Below are positions 33,591 to 40,399 of a stretch of DNA of 64,000 nucleotides, piece by piece. The stretch spans positions 4,090,001 to 4,154,000 of the forward strand of contig NZ_CP017886.1 of the NCBI RefSeq assembly GCF_001874645.1, read 5' to 3'. Source of the DNA: Pseudomonas frederiksbergensis (lineage in GTDB: Bacteria > Pseudomonadota > Gammaproteobacteria > Pseudomonadales > Pseudomonadaceae). The translations under genes and the position numbers were made by a program. The stretch's first letter is position 1. Each line of letters begins with the position of its first letter. The notes under the pieces were generated by a model that was not told the origin of the DNA, did no database searches, and saw only the letters and a list, made by a program, of their open reading frames with translations.

Positions 33591-34229
33591 TCAATCGTCA
33601 GAGGTCTTTTGCTTGTATTCGCACAGGTCTTCGATTCGACAGCTGCCGCAGCGGGGCTTGCGAGCCAGGCAAACATAGCGCCCGTGGAGGATGAGCCAGT
33701 GATGGGAGTCGAGCAAAAACTCTTTGGGTACAAACTTCATCAGTTTCTGTTCCACCTCGACGACATTCTTGCCTGGCGCTAACCCTGTGCGGTTGCTGAC
33801 ACGGAAAATATGCGTGTCAACGGCCATGGTCAACTGACGAAAAGCCGTGTTGAGCACCACGTTTGCGGTCTTTCTACCTACCCCGGGCAGCGCTTCCAGT
33901 TCCTCGCGGGTTTGCGGTACTTCGCCACCATGATGTTCTTCCAGCATTCGGCAGGTTTCGATGACATTCCTGGCCTTGCTGTTGAACAGGCCGATGGTCT
34001 TGATGTAGTCGGACAATCCTTCTACACCCAGCGCATAAATCGCTGCCGGGGTATTGGCCACCGGAAACAGCTTGGCGGTGGCCTTGTTGACGCCCACGTC
34101 AGTGGATTGCGCGGAAAGGATCACGGCGATCAGCAATTCGAAGGGCGATGAGTAGGCCAGTTCGGTTTTCGGTTCTGGATTGTCTTCGTGAAGCCGGCGG
34201 AAAATTTCCAGGCGTTTTGCGGCATTCAT
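33591..34229 (-). CDS. nth: endonuclease III
   Basis: 212 residues. Helix-hairpin-helix LPGVGRKTANVVL with the catalytic Lys, catalytic Asp in VDTHIFRVSNR, and the C-terminal [4Fe-4S] cluster CLARKPRCGSCRIEDLC. It removes oxidised pyrimidines. It is the last gene of the rnf operon, 24 bases after rnfE, as in many gamma-proteobacteria. Confidence 0.95.
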   Translation of the reverse strand: MNAAKRLEIFRRLHEDNPEPKTELAYSSPFELLIAVILSAQSTDVGVNKATAKLFPVANTPAAIYALGVEGLSDYIKTIGLFNSKARNVIETCRMLEEHHGGEVPQTREELEALPGVGRKTANVVLNTAFRQLTMAVDTHIFRVSNRTGLAPGKNVVEVEQKLMKFVPKEFLLDSHHWLILHGRYVCLARKPRCGSCRIEDLCEYKQKTSDD

Positions 34230-34253: not shown

Positions 34254-34844
34254 TCAATGTGAGGTTGAGGCACCAGGCCAGGCTTGTTTGGCGGCTATGA
34301 GCAGTCCCAGCAGGATAAACCCACCGGGGGCGAGGATGGTCAGTCGTATGCCGCCGTCAGCGGCAAACAGCCAGCCTTGCCCGTTAGCGTCGGCAAACCC
34401 GGTCAACCAGGACAGATGGCTGGCGAATGACCCATTGCCAATCCCTTCACGCAACACACCCAGAGCAACCATTAGCCCAATAAACAGGCCGGACTGGCGA
34501 ACCCGCTCCATCATTCTTGCCTGGGTGAAAAAGCCGCTGTGCTCCAGCGCAACGCATTGCAGAGCAATCAGGCCTGCATAAATTCCCAACTGCTGATGCA
34601 GTTCAAAGGCCCAGGCCTGCAATGCCAATGTTGCGAGGCTGGTCAATGTGGCGGCGAGCGCAATACTGGTGATCAACTGCATGGACGGGACGAGCCGCGG
34701 CCGCAATATGCTCATCTTCAAGCCGTAAACACCGATGACCAGCAGCGACAGCAGCGACAGGCTCAAGGCTTTTACCAAGGAGTCGCTGGCGCCGATCAAC
34801 GGGGTCAGTATCAGAGAGTTCTGCAGCATCGAGGAGTTATTCAT
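34254..34844 (-). CDS. rnfE: RnfE-like membrane subunit, one of two cluster cysteines missing
   Basis: 196 residues, about six membrane helices. It aligns with RnfE/RsxE by eye: NNSSMLQNS(L) at the start, WAFELHQQLGIYAGLIALQC, VLREGIGNGSF, LAPGGFILLGLLIA. In RnfE a cysteine follows LLGL near residue 14; here it is Thr14 (LILTPLIG). The second cysteine (about 97, ALQC) is kept. These residues hold the membrane [2Fe-2S] centre shared with RnfA, so the usual electron path is in doubt. Overlaps rnfG as ATGA. Confidence 0.82.
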   Translation of the reverse strand: MNNSSMLQNSLILTPLIGASDSLVKALSLSLLSLLVIGVYGLKMSILRPRLVPSMQLITSIALAATLTSLATLALQAWAFELHQQLGIYAGLIALQCVALEHSGFFTQARMMERVRQSGLFIGLMVALGVLREGIGNGSFASHLSWLTGFADANGQGWLFAADGGIRLTILAPGGFILLGLLIAAKQAWPGASTSH

Positions 34845-35446
34845 TGTCCGCTCCCGATCAGTTGTGGCTGATGTTCGTCGAAATAGCGTAACGCATCATG
34901 GATCGCGCTGATCACCGCCCTGGAAGTGACGGTTGCGCCGACCAACTGGTCGAATTGCCCCTGATCTTTTTTCAGTGCCCAGCCACTGTCACCAGGGTCG
35001 TTGCGCGACTTGCCGAAAAAGCCCTGAAGCCAGGGATTGGGCTGGTCGGCGATTTTCCCTCCCAGCCCCGGTGTTTCCGATTGCTTGAGGGTTTTGACCC
35101 CCAGCAGCTTGCCGTTGATGTCGATCACGATCAGCAGCTCGATCGCGTTTTCGTAACCCGTCACCTGGCTGCGTAATATCACTGCGCTGGGTTTTCCCCC
35201 AGCTGTCGCCAGGTAACCGCCCAGCAATGTGCTGTTGCTCAGCGCGATATCCTTGAGTTCGAGTGGCTGGTCCAATGGCTGATTGTCGTAGCTGCCGGCT
35301 GGCAGCATGTCGAACAGTTTGCGGCTCTCGATCAAGCGCTGTTCGGCCGAGACGTGTGGCGCAGAGGCGTGTTGCAGGAAAAATGTCGCACCTACGCCCA
35401 AACCGGCCACGACTACCAGAATCAGCACACTGAGATTGCGGTTCAT
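34841..35446 (-). CDS. rnfG: RnfG-like FMN-binding subunit
   Basis: 201 residues. One N-terminal helix, then a periplasmic FMN-binding domain with GLGGKIADQPNPWLQGFFG and the flavinylation motif LVGATVTS (FMN expected on Thr172). The flavin site therefore looks intact, unlike the RnfA/E cluster. Overlaps rnfD (35443-35446) and rnfE. Confidence 0.87.
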   Translation of the reverse strand: MNRNLSVLILVVVAGLGVGATFFLQHASAPHVSAEQRLIESRKLFDMLPAGSYDNQPLDQPLELKDIALSNSTLLGGYLATAGGKPSAVILRSQVTGYENAIELLIVIDINGKLLGVKTLKQSETPGLGGKIADQPNPWLQGFFGKSRNDPGDSGWALKKDQGQFDQLVGATVTSRAVISAIHDALRYFDEHQPQLIGSGQ

Positions 35447-36447
35447 GGCGTACGAGGCTCTGGTTGTGCAGCAGCGAGGCGTTCCAGGGCCGGTACGCAG
35501 AGATTCATCAGCAGCACCGCAAAGGCCACCCCGTCGGGATAACCGCCCCAGGTTCGTATCAGGTAGGTCAGCAGGCCGACGCCCGCGCCGAACATCAGGC
35601 GGGCTTTAGGGCTCTTCGCTCCGGACACCGGTTCGGTCACGATAAAAAATGCCCCGAGCATGCTCGCGCCCGTCAGCAAGTGAAAGAGCGGGGAGCCGTG
35701 GGAGTCCGAACCCGAGCCATTCCAGCACAGCAGACTGATGACGAACAGACTACCGAGCATACCGGCCGGTGCATGCCAGCTGAACACCCGCTGCTGTAAC
35801 AGAAATGCGCCGCCCGCGAGAAAGGCCAGGTTCACCCATTCAATACCCTTGCCGCCAAAGTGGCCAAACGCCGGGCTGCCGGCGAAGAGTTCGTCCATGG
35901 TCAGGCTTTTATTGATTCGCAGACTGTCCAGGGCCGTGGCCGTCACCCAGGCGTCCGGCTGCTCGGCACCGCTGAAATTGAAACCGAAAATCTGTTGCAG
36001 GCCGGTGAGCAGGTTCATCCCGGGAGACGTTGGCCAGTGGGTCATCTGTCGTGGGAAACACACCAGCACCAGCGCAAAACCGAGCATGGCCGGATTGAAC
36101 GGGTTTTTGCCAACGCCACCATAAAGGTGCTTGCCGAAAAACATCGCAAAAGCTGCAGCGTTGACCGTCAGCCACCACGGGCAGTAAGGCGGCAATGCCA
36201 GTGCCAGCAAGGTGGCACTGACCAACGCACTGCCATCGCTCAACGATGGCTTGAGCGGGTACTTGCGCAAGCGCAGCACTACCGCTTCAACCGCCAACGC
36301 GCTGCCGCAGGCCAGCAGCAGGTTGATCAGAACCCCCCAACCAAATAACCAGAACAACACCAGCATCCCCGGCACGGTGGCCAGTAACACCCGCTTCATC
36401 GCCTGTTGCAGGCGATCGTCGACCGGCTCAAGGGGCGACATAGGCAT
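35443..36447 (-). CDS. rnfD: RnfD-like membrane subunit
   Basis: 334 residues with about ten membrane helices. [26 protein letters not shown] is typical for RnfD/NqrB. The covalent-FMN threonine is probably Thr171 in WVTATALDS, a variant of the usual S-G/A-A-T motif, so flavin attachment is likely but not certain. It carries ions and electrons across the inner membrane in standard Rnf. It overlaps rnfB by about 14-20 bases (start 36447 or 36441). Confidence 0.85.
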
Positions 36448-37642
36448 TCACCTTGCGCTCGGCTTCGCTAAGCCTTTCGCGGGCCTTGGCCAAGAGTTCC
36501 GCGGGCGTATCAAGGTGTCGCTCGAGTTTGCTGACGTCGGCGCGGGCATAAGCCATTTCGGTTTTCAGTTGCCGCAGTTGAGAGTCGATGGGGCGTTTTT
36601 CGACGCGTACCAGATCGGGTGCTGGTTTTTCGCTGGCGCCTTCGGCATCGTGCAGCGCCTGTTCCGCTTGAGCCAGGGCTGCGCTGAGTGCTTCCAGTTG
36701 CTCGGTGGGGGCTTCGCTGGTCTGGGCTTTTTTTAGTTCGGCGCGGCGCATTGCCAGTTGGATTTTGGCGCGTTTGAGTTCGGCGTCGTTGGCGGGTGCT
36801 GTCGGTTGTACGGGAACCATCGGCGCAATGCTTTCGAGTTGTGCCAGGGTCTGCTCGGCGGCTTCGAATTGCTGCTGCAAAATGATCAGTTGGGACTGTT
36901 GTTCGAAGGTCGGTGGATGCCCGAATGCCTTCAGTGATTTGTTCAGTTGCGCGCGGCTCATCGCCACATCGATCTTGGCTTTTTTCAGCGCGGCATCGGC
37001 GGCAGCGGTTTTTTGTGCCTGGACCCGGGCAATAGCCCCCTGTAGTGGATTATTGCTGGTTTCGCTGTGTTGTGCGGCTTTTTGCGCACGGGCCAGTCGT
37101 TCGGCGTGTTTTTGCTCTTCCTCACGACGCAGACGCGCATTGCGCTGTTCAAAGCGCTGTCGGGCGTGATTACGCTTGGCGGTGCGTGCTTGCTGTTCTT
37201 CGAGCGTGAAGGCCAGACCACCGACTACCGGTAGCACGTTTGCCGAGGGCAATGGATGCATTTCGATGCAGTCCACCGGGCAGGGCGCTATGCACAGATC
37301 ACAGCCGGTGCATTCGTCGATGATCACCGTGTGCATCAGTTTTGCCGCGCCGACAATCGCGTCTATCGGGCAGGCCTGAATGCACTTGGTGCAGCCGATG
37401 CATTCGGCTTCGCGGATAAACGCAATTTGTGCCGGTGCCGAACCACGGCTGACGTCGAGTTCCAGAACCGGGACTTTCAGCAGCTCGGCCAGCCCCGAAA
37501 TGGTCTCGTTACCGCCCGGCGGGCACTTGTTGATCGCCTCGCCGCTGGCAATGCCTTCAGCGTAGGGCTTGCATCCGGGGTGGCCGCACTTGCCGCATTG
37601 GGTCTGCGGCAGAAGGGCGTCGATACGTTGAATCAGACTCAT
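36428..37642 (-). CDS. rnfB: RnfB-like iron-sulfur protein without membrane anchor, with long RnfC-like repeat tail
   Basis: 404 residues. It begins directly at the Fes domain ([21 protein letters not shown], Cys16, 19, 24, 40), lacking the hydrophobic N-terminal helix of standard RnfB. Two [4Fe-4S] ferredoxin motifs follow (Cys81-91 and Cys111-121). From residue 147 on there is a charged tail with a coiled coil and three degenerate repeats (about 219-238, 289-308, 357-376; L-K-x-A-K-I-x-x-A-M-x-R-A-x-L-x-K). Such repeats belong to the C-terminus of RnfC. It overlaps rnfA (ATGA) and rnfD. Confidence 0.85.
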
Positions 37643-38226
37643 GTTTTGATCAGTCCGCTGAAGCCAAGAAATGCCACCGCAATCAATCCGGCGCTGATCA
37701 GGTCGATCGGCAAGCCACGAAAGGGCAGGGGCACATCGTTATTGAGAGTGCGCTGACGCAGGTCGCTGAACAGACTCAGCACCAGCCAGAAACCCAGCCC
37801 GGCGCCGAGACTCAGCGCTGTGTGATCGCCAAAACCTTTGTCGCCCTGCATGCCGAACAGGCTCAGCCCCAGCACACCGGCGTTGCCCAGCAGCAATGGC
37901 CACAGTCCACTGAACGGTAACTGTGGCAGGGCACGCTCCAGCAGATTCAGCACGGGTGTAATCAGCAGCACGCTCAAGGGCAAAAACACAAACAGGTGCA
38001 AGGACGCCAGACCCAGCGGTATCAGCAGCCAGTGATAGGCCGCGTAACCCAGCAGGCCGCTGAGCAGCATCAGGCAGGTGGTCGCAATGCCCAGGGCATG
38101 AACCTGACGACGCTCGATGGTAGGCGTGCGCGTTGACTGTACCAACGGATCGACACCCAGCGGCCAGTGCAATATGAAGTTATTGATCAGGGCGGTGCTG
38201 ATGAGCGTAAGCAGAATGTCGGTCAT
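37639..38226 (-). CDS. rnfA: RnfA-like membrane subunit, both cluster cysteines missing
   Basis: 195 residues, six helices; [17 protein letters not shown] and C-terminal [29 protein letters not shown] clearly match RnfA/RsxA. Standard RnfA has Cys26 (LGLCP) and another in TNCAVLG. Here these are Asp26 (LGVDP) and Ala116 (GNAGVLG); Cys51 lies in a different helix position. It is the first gene of the operon, followed by rnfB. Probably in the inner membrane with RnfE. Confidence 0.85.
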
Positions 38227-38347: not shown

Positions 38348-40399
38348 TTACTTGATGCGCTGGCCCGGCTTGGCGCCGCTGTCCGGACTCAACAGGTAGA
38401 TTTCTTCGCCGCCAGGGCCGGCCGCCATGACCATGCCTTCGGAGATCCCGAAGCGCATTTTGCGTGGCTTGAGGTTGGCGATCATCATCGTCAGACGACC
38501 TTCAAGCTTGGCCGGGTCCGGATAGGCGCTCTTGATGCCGGAGAACACGTTGCGTTGCTCGTCACCGATGTCCAGGGTCAGGCGCAGTAGCTTGTCCGCG
38601 CCTTCCACCGCTTCGGCCTTGAGGATCAGGGCAACCCGCAGGTCGACGGCAGCAAAGGTATCGAACTCGATCTCGGCCGAGAGCGGATCCTTGACCAGCT
38701 CGCCATTGCCTTGGGGCACAGCATCGCCGGTGTCGGTCTGGCTGGCGGCCAGGTCTTCTTTTGAAGCGTCGGTCATGGCTTGCACCTTGACCGGGTCGAT
38801 GCGGGTCATCAACGGTTTGAACTCGTTCAGCTGATGATTGCTGAGCAGGGTCGCGTGATCGTTCCAGGTCAACGGTGCGACGTTGAGGAACGCCTCGGCG
38901 TCGGCGGCCAGCAACGGCAGCACAGGCTTGAGGAAGATCACCAGTTGGCGGAACAGGTTGACGCCGAGGGCGCAGATCGCCTGGACTTCGTCTTGCTTGC
39001 CTTCCTGTTTGTTCAGCGACCATGGCGCCTTGTCGGCGATCCAGGCGTTGGCGCGGTCGGCCAGGCCCATGATTTCGCGCATGGCCCGGGCGAAGTCGCG
39101 TGCCTCGTAGGCGTCGCAGATGCTCGGCGCAGCGGCCAGGAACGCTTCGGTCAGTTCTGGCGCGGCATTCCCGGCCACCAGCACGCCGGCGTTGCCTTTG
39201 TGGATGAAGCCTGCGCAGCGGCTGGCGATGTTGACGACTTTGCCGACCAGGTCGGAGTTGACCTTCTGCACGAAGTCTTCGAGGTTCAGGTCCAGATCGT
39301 CGACACCACGGCCAAGTTTGGCTGCGTAGTAGTAGCGCAGGTATTCCGGCGACAGGTGGTCCAGGTACGTCCGGGCCTTGATAAAGGTGCCGCGGGACTT
39401 GGACATTTTCTGGCCGTTGACGGTCAGGTAGCCGTGTACGTTGATGCCGGTCGGCTTGCGGTAGCCCGCGCCTTCAAGCATTGCCGGCCAGAACAGTGCG
39501 TGGAAGTTGACGATGTCCTTGCCGATGAAGTGGTACAGCTCGGCGCTAGAATCCTTGGCCCAGTACGCGTCGAAGTCCAGTTCCGGACGACGTGCGCAGA
39601 GGTTCTTGAAGCTCGCCATGTAGCCGATCGGCGCGTCCAGCCAGACGTAGAAGTACTTGCCTGGCTCGTCCGGGATTTCGAAACCGAAGTACGGCGCATC
39701 GCGGGAGATGTCCCACTGTTGCAGGCCGACATCCAGCCATTCGGCGATCTTGTTCGCAACCGCGTCCTGCAGGGTGCCGCTGCGGGTCCATTCCTGCAGC
39801 ATTTGCTGGAAGTCCGGCAGCTTGAAGAAGAAGTGCTGGGAATCCTTGAGCACCGGTGTGGCGCCAGAGATCGCCGACTTCGGATCTTTCAGGTCGGTGG
39901 GCGCGTAGGTGGCACCGCATTTTTCGCAGTTGTCGCCGTACTGGTCTTCAGTGCCGCACTTCGGGCAGGTGCCCTTGATGAAGCGGTCGGCCAGGAACAT
40001 TTTCTTTTCCGGGTCGAAATACTGGGTGATCGAGCGCGTGGCAATGTGCCCGGCGTCACGCAGCTTCAGGTAGATCTGGCTCGACAGCTCACGGTTTTCT
40101 TCGGCGTGAGTGGAGTGGAAATTGTCGAAGTCCACCAGGAACTCGGCAAAGTCGGCGCTGTGTTCAGCCTGGACATTGGCGATCAGTTGTTCCGGGGTGA
40201 TGCCTTCTTTTTCTGCGCGCAGCATGATGGCCGAACCGTGGGCGTCGTCCGCGCAGACGTAAGTGCATTGATTGCCGCGATGCTTCTGGAAGCGCACCCA
40301 CATATCGGTCTGGATGTACTCAAGCATATGGCCAAGGTGGATTGAACCATTGGCATAGGGCAGGGCGCTGGTGACGAGGATCTTGCGTGGCTCGGACAT
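38348..40399 (-). CDS. metG: methionyl-tRNA synthetase
   Basis: 683 residues. HIGH-type motif ([12 protein letters not shown]), KMSKS in GQKMSKSRG, zinc-knuckle cysteines (CPKCG ... CEKCG, about 141-158) and a C-terminal tRNA-binding domain (about 580-683) used for dimerisation. It charges tRNA-Met. It is divergent from apbC. Confidence 0.96.

Follow-up and report, generated by a model that had tools for sequence, protein, structure and literature searches.

A reduced and rebuilt Rnf operon in Pseudomonas frederiksbergensis, probably with a role other than the known Rnf reaction

Known Rnf and Nqr systems and the locus under study

The canonical Rnf/Rsx genes of Pseudomonas lie in the order metG-rnfABCDGE-nth. 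In the Rnf complex, RnfC is the NADH module and carries FMN and two [4Fe-4S] clusters, and RnfB is held in the membrane by an N-terminal helix. In a cryo-electron microscopy paper (PMC9588780), RnfA Cys25 and Cys113 together with RnfE Cys26 and Cys109 were called invariant, and in Acetobacterium woodii mutants in the ligands of this membrane [2Fe-2S] cluster (AE1) showed no autotrophic growth and yielded complexes without ferredoxin-dependent NAD reduction (PMC11889175). Partial Rnf/Nqr systems have been described mainly in Actinobacteria and the Candidate Phyla Radiation (PMC8238504, PMC10979944). Among them, the NQR/RNF-like systems of Meheust et al. (2021), which combine an RnfD-like protein fused to a PF00175 NAD-binding domain with an RnfG-like protein, are thought to send electrons one way to the periplasm (PMC8238504). 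Here we describe a metG-rnf-nth locus in a window of 64,000 nucleotides, by which we mean the whole stretch of DNA analysed, from Pseudomonas frederiksbergensis (NZ_CP017886.1, 4,090,001-4,154,000; genome of 6.12 Mb in 2 contigs, 100% complete). The locus shares its neighbours, its gene order and homologous A, B, D, G and E subunits with the canonical system, but the RnfC core is gone, RnfB is anchorless and carries an RnfC tail, three of the four [2Fe-2S] ligands of RnfA and RnfE have disappeared, and an Asp of RnfD has become Glu. Because the NADH module and the membrane cluster are lost, yet the flavin sites are kept and selection persists, this reduced and rebuilt Rnf probably serves another purpose than the known Rnf reaction; it was found in 89 of the 149 Pseudomonas genomes sampled.

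None of the related systems matches this arrangement. Unlike the NQR/RNF-like systems, the RnfD of the window carries PF03116 as the sole domain found in it, and RnfA and RnfE are retained. Na+-translocating NADH:quinone oxidoreductase (Na+-NQR) has homologous membrane subunits and flavin sites and no RnfB, whereas the variant operon lacks NqrA and NqrF as well as the full set of cluster ligands. NqrA and NqrF are absent from the operon's five genes, to which the search for them was confined; the model for RnfD also picks up NqrB in other genomes, and in the window's genome its single match is the operon's own RnfD. Stand-alone RsxB proteins (PRK06991, NF005415) of other proteobacteria lie beside nth and, by eye, likewise join an RnfB iron-sulfur (Fe-S) core to a charged RnfC-like tail, but the RnfB of the window scores 253.7 bits, under the NF005415 cut-off of 281, has a longer tail and is accompanied by RnfADGE. 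No description of this Pseudomonas variant was found among the papers listed in searches of the open-access PMC literature, outside which subscription papers mostly fall.

The genes are read from the minus strand in the order metG (38348..40399), rnfA (37639..38226, 195 amino acids), rnfB (36428..37642, 404 amino acids), rnfD (35443..36447, or from 36441 if the second ATG is the start), rnfG (34841..35446), rnfE (34254..34844, 196 amino acids) and nth for endonuclease III (33591..34229), with metG and nth as conserved neighbours upstream and downstream. Neighbouring rnf genes overlap slightly, and an overlap of 14-20 bases between rnfB and rnfD, described in an earlier note on this DNA, is borne out by the coordinates. 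All five operon proteins match Rnf subunit models. RnfD, the best conserved membrane subunit (TIGR01946, 363.5 bits against a cut-off of 207), RnfG, the periplasmic flavin mononucleotide (FMN) subunit with its PF04205 domain (TIGR01947, 141.8 against 102), and RnfB (215 against 68.7) pass the NCBIfam subfamily cut-offs; RnfA (TIGR01943, 107 against 229; NF003481, 119 against 240) and RnfE (78 against 213; NF009070, 93.7 against 184) lie far under theirs. The predicted structure of RnfA has six helices in a mediocre model (mean predicted local distance difference test, pLDDT, only 65.6), whose best Foldseek matches are the RnfA proteins of A. woodii (E=1.5e-5) and Azotobacter vinelandii (2.1e-5); from structure predictions, helix content and this fold match alone were used. 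The nearest named relatives by RnfA include Pseudomonas sp. 6D_7.1_Bac1, Pseudomonas sp. H3(2019) and P. fluorescens FW300-N2E3 (91-93%).

A comparison of the operon across pseudomonads, as the earlier note had proposed, places it in a large group. In the genus sample of 149 genomes, counted from family searches among the matches listed, 19 genomes carry canonical ABCDGE, 78 ABDGE, 11 ADGE without B, 33 B alone and 8 neither, so that the RnfC-less variant (ABDGE or ADGE) comprises the 89 genomes mentioned above. The architecture was read directly in 100 of the 149 loci, including the window (5 canonical, 51 ABDGE, 11 ADGE, 33 B-only). RnfA and RnfD were matched in the same 110 genomes, two of which (G001, G147) have Nqr-type subunits only; one genome (G034), in which rnfD as well as apbE is in two pieces, was scored as having both genes. 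All 65 named Pseudomonas loci read metG-A-B-D-G-E-nth, one of them (L123) being sorted with B before A by frame start; these loci were retrieved via RnfA, and loci without RnfA could not show up among them.

Loss of the NADH module, the RnfB anchor and the membrane cluster

The earlier note had described an operon without rnfC and proposed a search of the whole genome for the gene. The rnfC model TIGR01945 gave five matches in the genome, none at the cut-off of 245.95 bits; the best reached 58 bits, the top three are NuoF-family proteins, and the remaining two, left unexamined, score only 26.6 and 22.9 bits. An rnfC elsewhere in the window's genome was rejected on these grounds. That a normal Rnf makes use of an RnfC-like protein from another locus is extremely improbable: five of the 89 variant genomes (G021, G057, G072, G093, G103) do hold an RnfC-like protein with a second RnfD-like gene, and one ABDGE genome (G022) additionally carries a second complete rnf set, but RnfC is over the cut-off neither here nor in any of the 82 other variant genomes besides these six, and the RnfA/RnfE cluster ligands are gone in all 128 aligned rows (see below).

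The absence of rnfC holds for the gene as a whole, but not for its 3' end, since the C-terminal tail of RnfC persists, fused to RnfB. Residues 216-398 of RnfB align with the C-terminal tail of a canonical Pseudomonas RnfC (L034) at 54% identity over 183 residues (blastp, E=2e-43, computed against a set of six RnfC sequences), the best of the shuffled-tail controls (five shuffles each) reaching E=0.017, and in another locus (L024) the match covers almost the whole RnfB tail. The tail (36431..37204, minus strand, its start set by eye) consists of approximately 250 charged residues after the ferredoxin domain, which are helical in the model (mean pLDDT 58.6), the RnfB core being poorly predicted (pLDDT below 50). 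The portion of RnfC that bears the Fe-S cysteines, which ends near residue 421 in one RnfC (L032), is absent from the fusion. On these alignments, the missing gene is best understood as a loss of the RnfC core, with the tail left behind on RnfB. An RnfC-like tail is present in 115 of 117 rnfABDGE loci, the exceptions being a short RnfB (L048) and a fragment (L058), and in all 33 loci that carry rnfB alone.

The Fe-S core of RnfB (37259..37642, minus strand) comprises the PF04060 cluster domain and the PF14697 two-cluster ferredoxin domain. Its cysteines are retained in 61 of 62 RnfB rows lacking RnfC (nine of them from B-only loci), the exception again being the fragment L058. The protein begins right at the Fe-S domain, and its TIGR01944 match starts only at profile position 35. 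A hydrophobic RnfB N-terminus was found in the six canonical rows and in no others, and the anchor column that we checked is a gap in 62 of 62 rows; judged from the absent anchor, RnfB is likely to be soluble.

Such a protein might dock on RnfD in the place of RnfC, its inherited tail holding the ferredoxin domains beneath RnfD, with electrons passing directly from ferredoxin to the RnfD riboflavin and on to RnfG, bypassing RnfA and RnfE. The fused segment is indeed an RnfC tail, the Fe-S cysteines are kept as described above, and in A. vinelandii the long C-terminal helix of RnfC, whose function is not understood, contacts RnfB and RnfH (PMC12174285). We nevertheless regard docking as unlikely, because 11 of the 89 variant genomes keep RnfADGE without RnfB, 33 genomes hold RnfB with its tail without RnfADGE, and the presence of the two is not associated. 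RnfB and ADGE are distributed independently of each other over the 130 non-canonical genomes (78/11/33/8; p=0.30), and over seven independent pairs RnfB and RnfDG changed the same way in 0.0, the opposite way in 0.3 and without difference in 6.7. RnfB as an obligate partner of ADGE was rejected on these counts.

The membrane cluster has been dismantled as well. The variant alignment comprised 128 sequences, 63 from the genus sample (window included) and 65 from the named loci; two RnfC-like/RnfD-like pairs (L073, L074) were excluded from the subunit alignments, proteins containing X were skipped, and residue positions were tied to A. woodii numbering by alignment. In the canonical comparison rows (nine for RnfA, eight for RnfE) Cys occupies both cluster positions throughout. 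In the variant, Cys occurs in none of the 128 rows at the first RnfA position (Asp26 in the window, 38149..38151; Asp in 112, Glu in 3, and Gln, Gly, Ala, Asn, Thr or a single gap in the remaining 13), at the second RnfA position (Ala116, 37879..37881; Ala in 116) or at the first RnfE position (Thr14, 34803..34805). The second RnfE position, Cys97 (34554..34556), is Cys in 126 of 128 rows and is the sole survivor of the four in the window; all four codons lie on the minus strand. A Cys within five columns was found in 4 of 128 rows at the second RnfA position and in 5 of 128 at the first RnfE position. Another RnfE column, Leu70 in the window, holds Cys in 111 of 128 variants and, together with the kept cluster Cys, suggests a paired-Cys feature that is present in most variants and absent from the window.

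The substitutions also raise the possibility of a cluster-free ion path, in which the acidic RnfA residue would bind H+ or Na+ and be gated by the flavin chemistry of RnfD and RnfG. Asp or Glu at the first cluster position fits this idea, as do Trp147 and Asp155 of RnfA, which are new and invariant in the variant (128/128) and usually other residues in the nine canonical rows, and in A. woodii Na+ passes RnfA/RnfE (PMC11889175). The other 13 rows, with a non-acidic residue or a gap at that position, argue against it, and we hold such a path to be distinctly unlikely.

With the RnfC core, the full AE1 ligand set and the RnfB anchor gone, neither NADH nor RnfB reaches the flavins by known routes. 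Electrons can thus take neither of the two canonical routes on the cytosolic side, and established Rnf biochemistry makes a ferredoxin:NAD ion pump very unlikely, unless an unknown cofactor replaces AE1. The earlier note had missed the tail on RnfB, the lost anchor and the absence of three of the four cluster cysteines. Its proposal of a stable RnfC-less variant in need of another electron donor or acceptor is upheld by the occurrence in 89 of 149 genomes, by purifying selection (see below) and, in the window's genome, by the lack of any rnfC over the cut-off; the SoxR-reducing (Rsx) role that it had suggested as one option fails in that genome.

There, the best match to SoxR scores 65 bits against a family cut-off of 116.9, and judged by this search the operon is not a SoxR reductase in this genome. 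SoxR is over the cut-off in 105 of the 149 genomes, and it occurs more often in variant genomes (77 of 89) than in genomes without RnfDG (24 of 41; p=6e-4, kinship ignored), as would be expected of an Rsx system that reduces SoxR as in E. coli. That explanation is nonetheless very improbable: RsxC is missing, SoxR is under the cut-off here and in 11 other variant genomes, only 4 of 19 genomes with canonical rnf possess it, and seven independent pairs show little association (the same way in 2.0, the opposite way in 1.0, no difference in 4.0). A SoxR link was accordingly rejected for the window's genome and is weak in general. Public protein names for such genes are RnfA, Rnf-Nqr domain protein, NADH:quinone oxidoreductase, RnfB and RsxB (best 120 of 566 and best 120 of 7659 matches), and Rnf/Rsx annotations in the P. 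fluorescens group are likely to be read as a ferredoxin:NAD pump or a SoxR reductase; for the window's genome the sequences speak against both.

Retained flavin sites and a candidate electron route

The covalent flavin sites have been preserved throughout. The covalent FMN site of RnfD, Thr171, is Thr in 127 of 128 variant rows and Ser in one; that of RnfG, Thr172, is Thr in 125 and Ser in 3; RnfG Tyr98 is retained in 127, and the riboflavin-binding Asn of RnfD (N123 in A. woodii) in all 128. At the riboflavin-ligand Asp of RnfD (D249 in A. woodii, located via the alignment to 9eri_D) the window has Glu272 (35632..35634, minus strand), with Glu in 127 rows and Gln in 1, compared with Asp in 9 of 9 canonical rows; this change can serve as a diagnostic marker of the variant. 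In A. woodii, mutants in the RnfG FMN site (T185, Y113) or in the RnfD riboflavin ligands (N123, D249) showed no autotrophic growth and no ferredoxin-dependent NAD reduction (PMC11889175). The first residue of the RnfG motif (Val in the window) was dropped as a notable change, the canonical residue being Ala in 5 of 6 rows and in A. vinelandii, not Ser.

ApbE is the flavin transferase that attaches FMN to RnfD and RnfG. It is present in all 89 variant and all 19 canonical genomes, in 8 of 33 B-only genomes and in 1 of 8 without RnfB and RnfDG, which gives 89/89 with the variant versus 9/41 without RnfDG (Fisher p=1.3e-22, kinship ignored). Over seven independent pairs on well supported branches, ApbE changed in step with RnfDG in an average of 4.4 and against it in none. 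The conserved sites, together with the ApbE counts, suggest that the flavins of RnfD and RnfG are still in use.

We lean, with modest confidence, towards reading the locus as a gutted and rebuilt Rnf that consists of a flavin relay, RnfADGE, and a separate polyferredoxin, RnfB with its RnfC tail. RnfADGE would act as a one-way flavin relay, in which RnfD accepts electrons on the cytosolic side from membrane quinol or from a soluble ferredoxin, for example the tailed RnfB, and hands them on, FMN to FMN, to RnfG in the periplasm, which would deliver them to a periplasmic or envelope acceptor; flow in the opposite direction is conceivable. RnfA and RnfE may be retained as a scaffold, as a dock for RnfG or as an ion path. 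The tailed RnfB, often kept alone beside nth, would be a soluble polyferredoxin with a separate function, given that it survives, tail included, where RnfADGE is lacking. Whatever the direction, electrons probably move between the membrane or cytosol and the periplasm.

Several points weigh against the flavin relay with its separate polyferredoxin. Nothing else in the operon points to a donor or an acceptor. The solubility of RnfB is deduced from the missing anchor. The conserved second Cys of RnfE (126/128) together with the Asp at the first RnfA position (112/128) may form another metal site, and the change from Asp to Glu in RnfD may mean that the cytosolic riboflavin is lost or altered. 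The association with ApbE is not significant in a sign test on the seven independent pairs (median p 0.125), which are too few, and ApbE has other clients in the window's genome, because one apbE gene lies beside that of a Si-specific transhydrogenase, which we take to be sthA, and a second one adjoins a PepSY-reductase/VIT1 cluster. Finally, RnfA and RnfE evolve fast, so that the operon could be in slow decay.

The rates of evolution bear on this last point. Ratios of nonsynonymous to synonymous substitution (dN/dS) were estimated by the Nei-Gojobori method for 16 hand-picked pairs (15 for RnfG, owing to dS limits, and for Nth and MetG). The medians are 0.09 for RnfD, 0.10 for RnfB, 0.16 for RnfG, 0.18 for RnfA and 0.24 for RnfE, compared with 0.03 for Nth and 0.035 for MetG, and the highest single value is 0.31 (RnfA). 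Columns conserved in at least 95% of the 128 rows number 127 in RnfD (eight named conserved columns that differ from the canonical residue being counted apart), 37 in RnfA, 36 in RnfG and 13 in RnfE. The looser selection on RnfA and RnfE than on RnfD and RnfB that these values suggest fits the loss of the cluster. From the medians a pseudogene was judged unlikely. A remnant that has been eroding slowly since the loss of RnfC and has no important role would account for the graded losses within the genus, for at least 11 changes of the RnfDG state on the tree of neighbouring genes (see below) and for the fast divergence of RnfA and RnfE, whose mean identity among variants is 54% and 41%. Against this stand the low dN/dS over all five genes, the 127 conserved columns of RnfD and the retention of ApbE alongside variant operons; in addition, the listed RnfA, RnfB and RnfD matches of variant operons contain no internal stop, and rnfD is in two pieces only in G034. 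We consider such decay quite unlikely.

The variant offers a natural experiment on the Rnf/Nqr mechanism, in which the NADH module and three experimentally essential cluster ligands have been lost and the flavin sites and ApbE kept. Two questions become testable, namely what work the flavins of RnfD and RnfG do alone, and which role RnfA and RnfE play without the cluster. We put forward as a doubtful but conceivable answer that RnfA and RnfE are essential without a redox cluster and that the membrane core of Rnf is a pure RnfD-RnfG flavin relay coupled to cluster-free RnfA/RnfE, an acidic residue replacing a ligand in most species. If true, an ancient respiratory pump would have lost both of its cytosolic electron ports and given rise to a new type of envelope machine, a flavin-driven electron exporter or ion transporter.

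Phylogeny of the variant and related loci

In an RnfD tree of 77 rows, for which the program warned of long outgroup branches, all 65 variant rows lie beyond one branch (SH-aLRT 93, not starred) that adjoins five canonical Pseudomonas rows; variant RnfD averages 58% identity to canonical Pseudomonas RnfD. The simplest reading is a single origin followed by long persistence. RnfB presence changed at least four times among the variants on this tree. A quick tree of MetG and Nth was built from the 97 of the 100 directly read loci that had enough sequence (two canonical loci and one ABDGE locus dropped out; the eight genomes without RnfB and RnfD are not in it), and on it RnfDG changes at least 11 times and ApbE at least 8 times.

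Across the class, an RnfA-model match was found in 183 of 274 genomes and was over the cut-off in 151. Twelve genomes with weak matches were followed, the stronger ones under the cut-off, many of them probably NqrE, being left aside. Judged by eye, an RnfA without Cys at both positions lies beside metG in five of the twelve, from other families: G156 (L199/L200), G244 (L197), G268 (L194/L195), G365 (L198) and G399 (L196). RnfC is still present in G268 and G399. In G244, metG is followed by an apparently solitary rnfA and then by a UbiA-family gene, with an RnfB-type match elsewhere in the genome. Two further genomes (G281, G394) retain the cluster Cys, and in the other five the weak match proved to be RnfE, with no RnfA seen. 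An RnfB with an RnfC-like tail, again by eye, was also noted beside nth in distant genomes; it is anchorless in L209, L213 and L214 and keeps a hydrophobic N-terminus in L206, and in L211 nth lies on the opposite strand. Reduction of the metG-rnf-nth locus seems to recur, the Pseudomonas form being a stage that is stable in many species.

Two other kinds of loci were observed in passing. The second apbE of the window's genome (L204 1929-5886, C1 ~4885000-4889000) clusters with a gene for a PepSY-flavodoxin-NAD reductase membrane protein and with a VIT1 family gene, probably a flavinylated ferric reductase with iron transport. A separate two-gene set, found in seven genomes in all, encodes an RnfC-like protein with FMN and 4Fe-4S domains followed by an RnfD-like protein (L202 7384-9869, L073 and L074, from G093, G103 and G021); in G093 it is adjoined by apbE and a pyridine-nucleotide oxidoreductase gene. 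The pair looks like another partial Rnf, one that leads from NADH to RnfD only.

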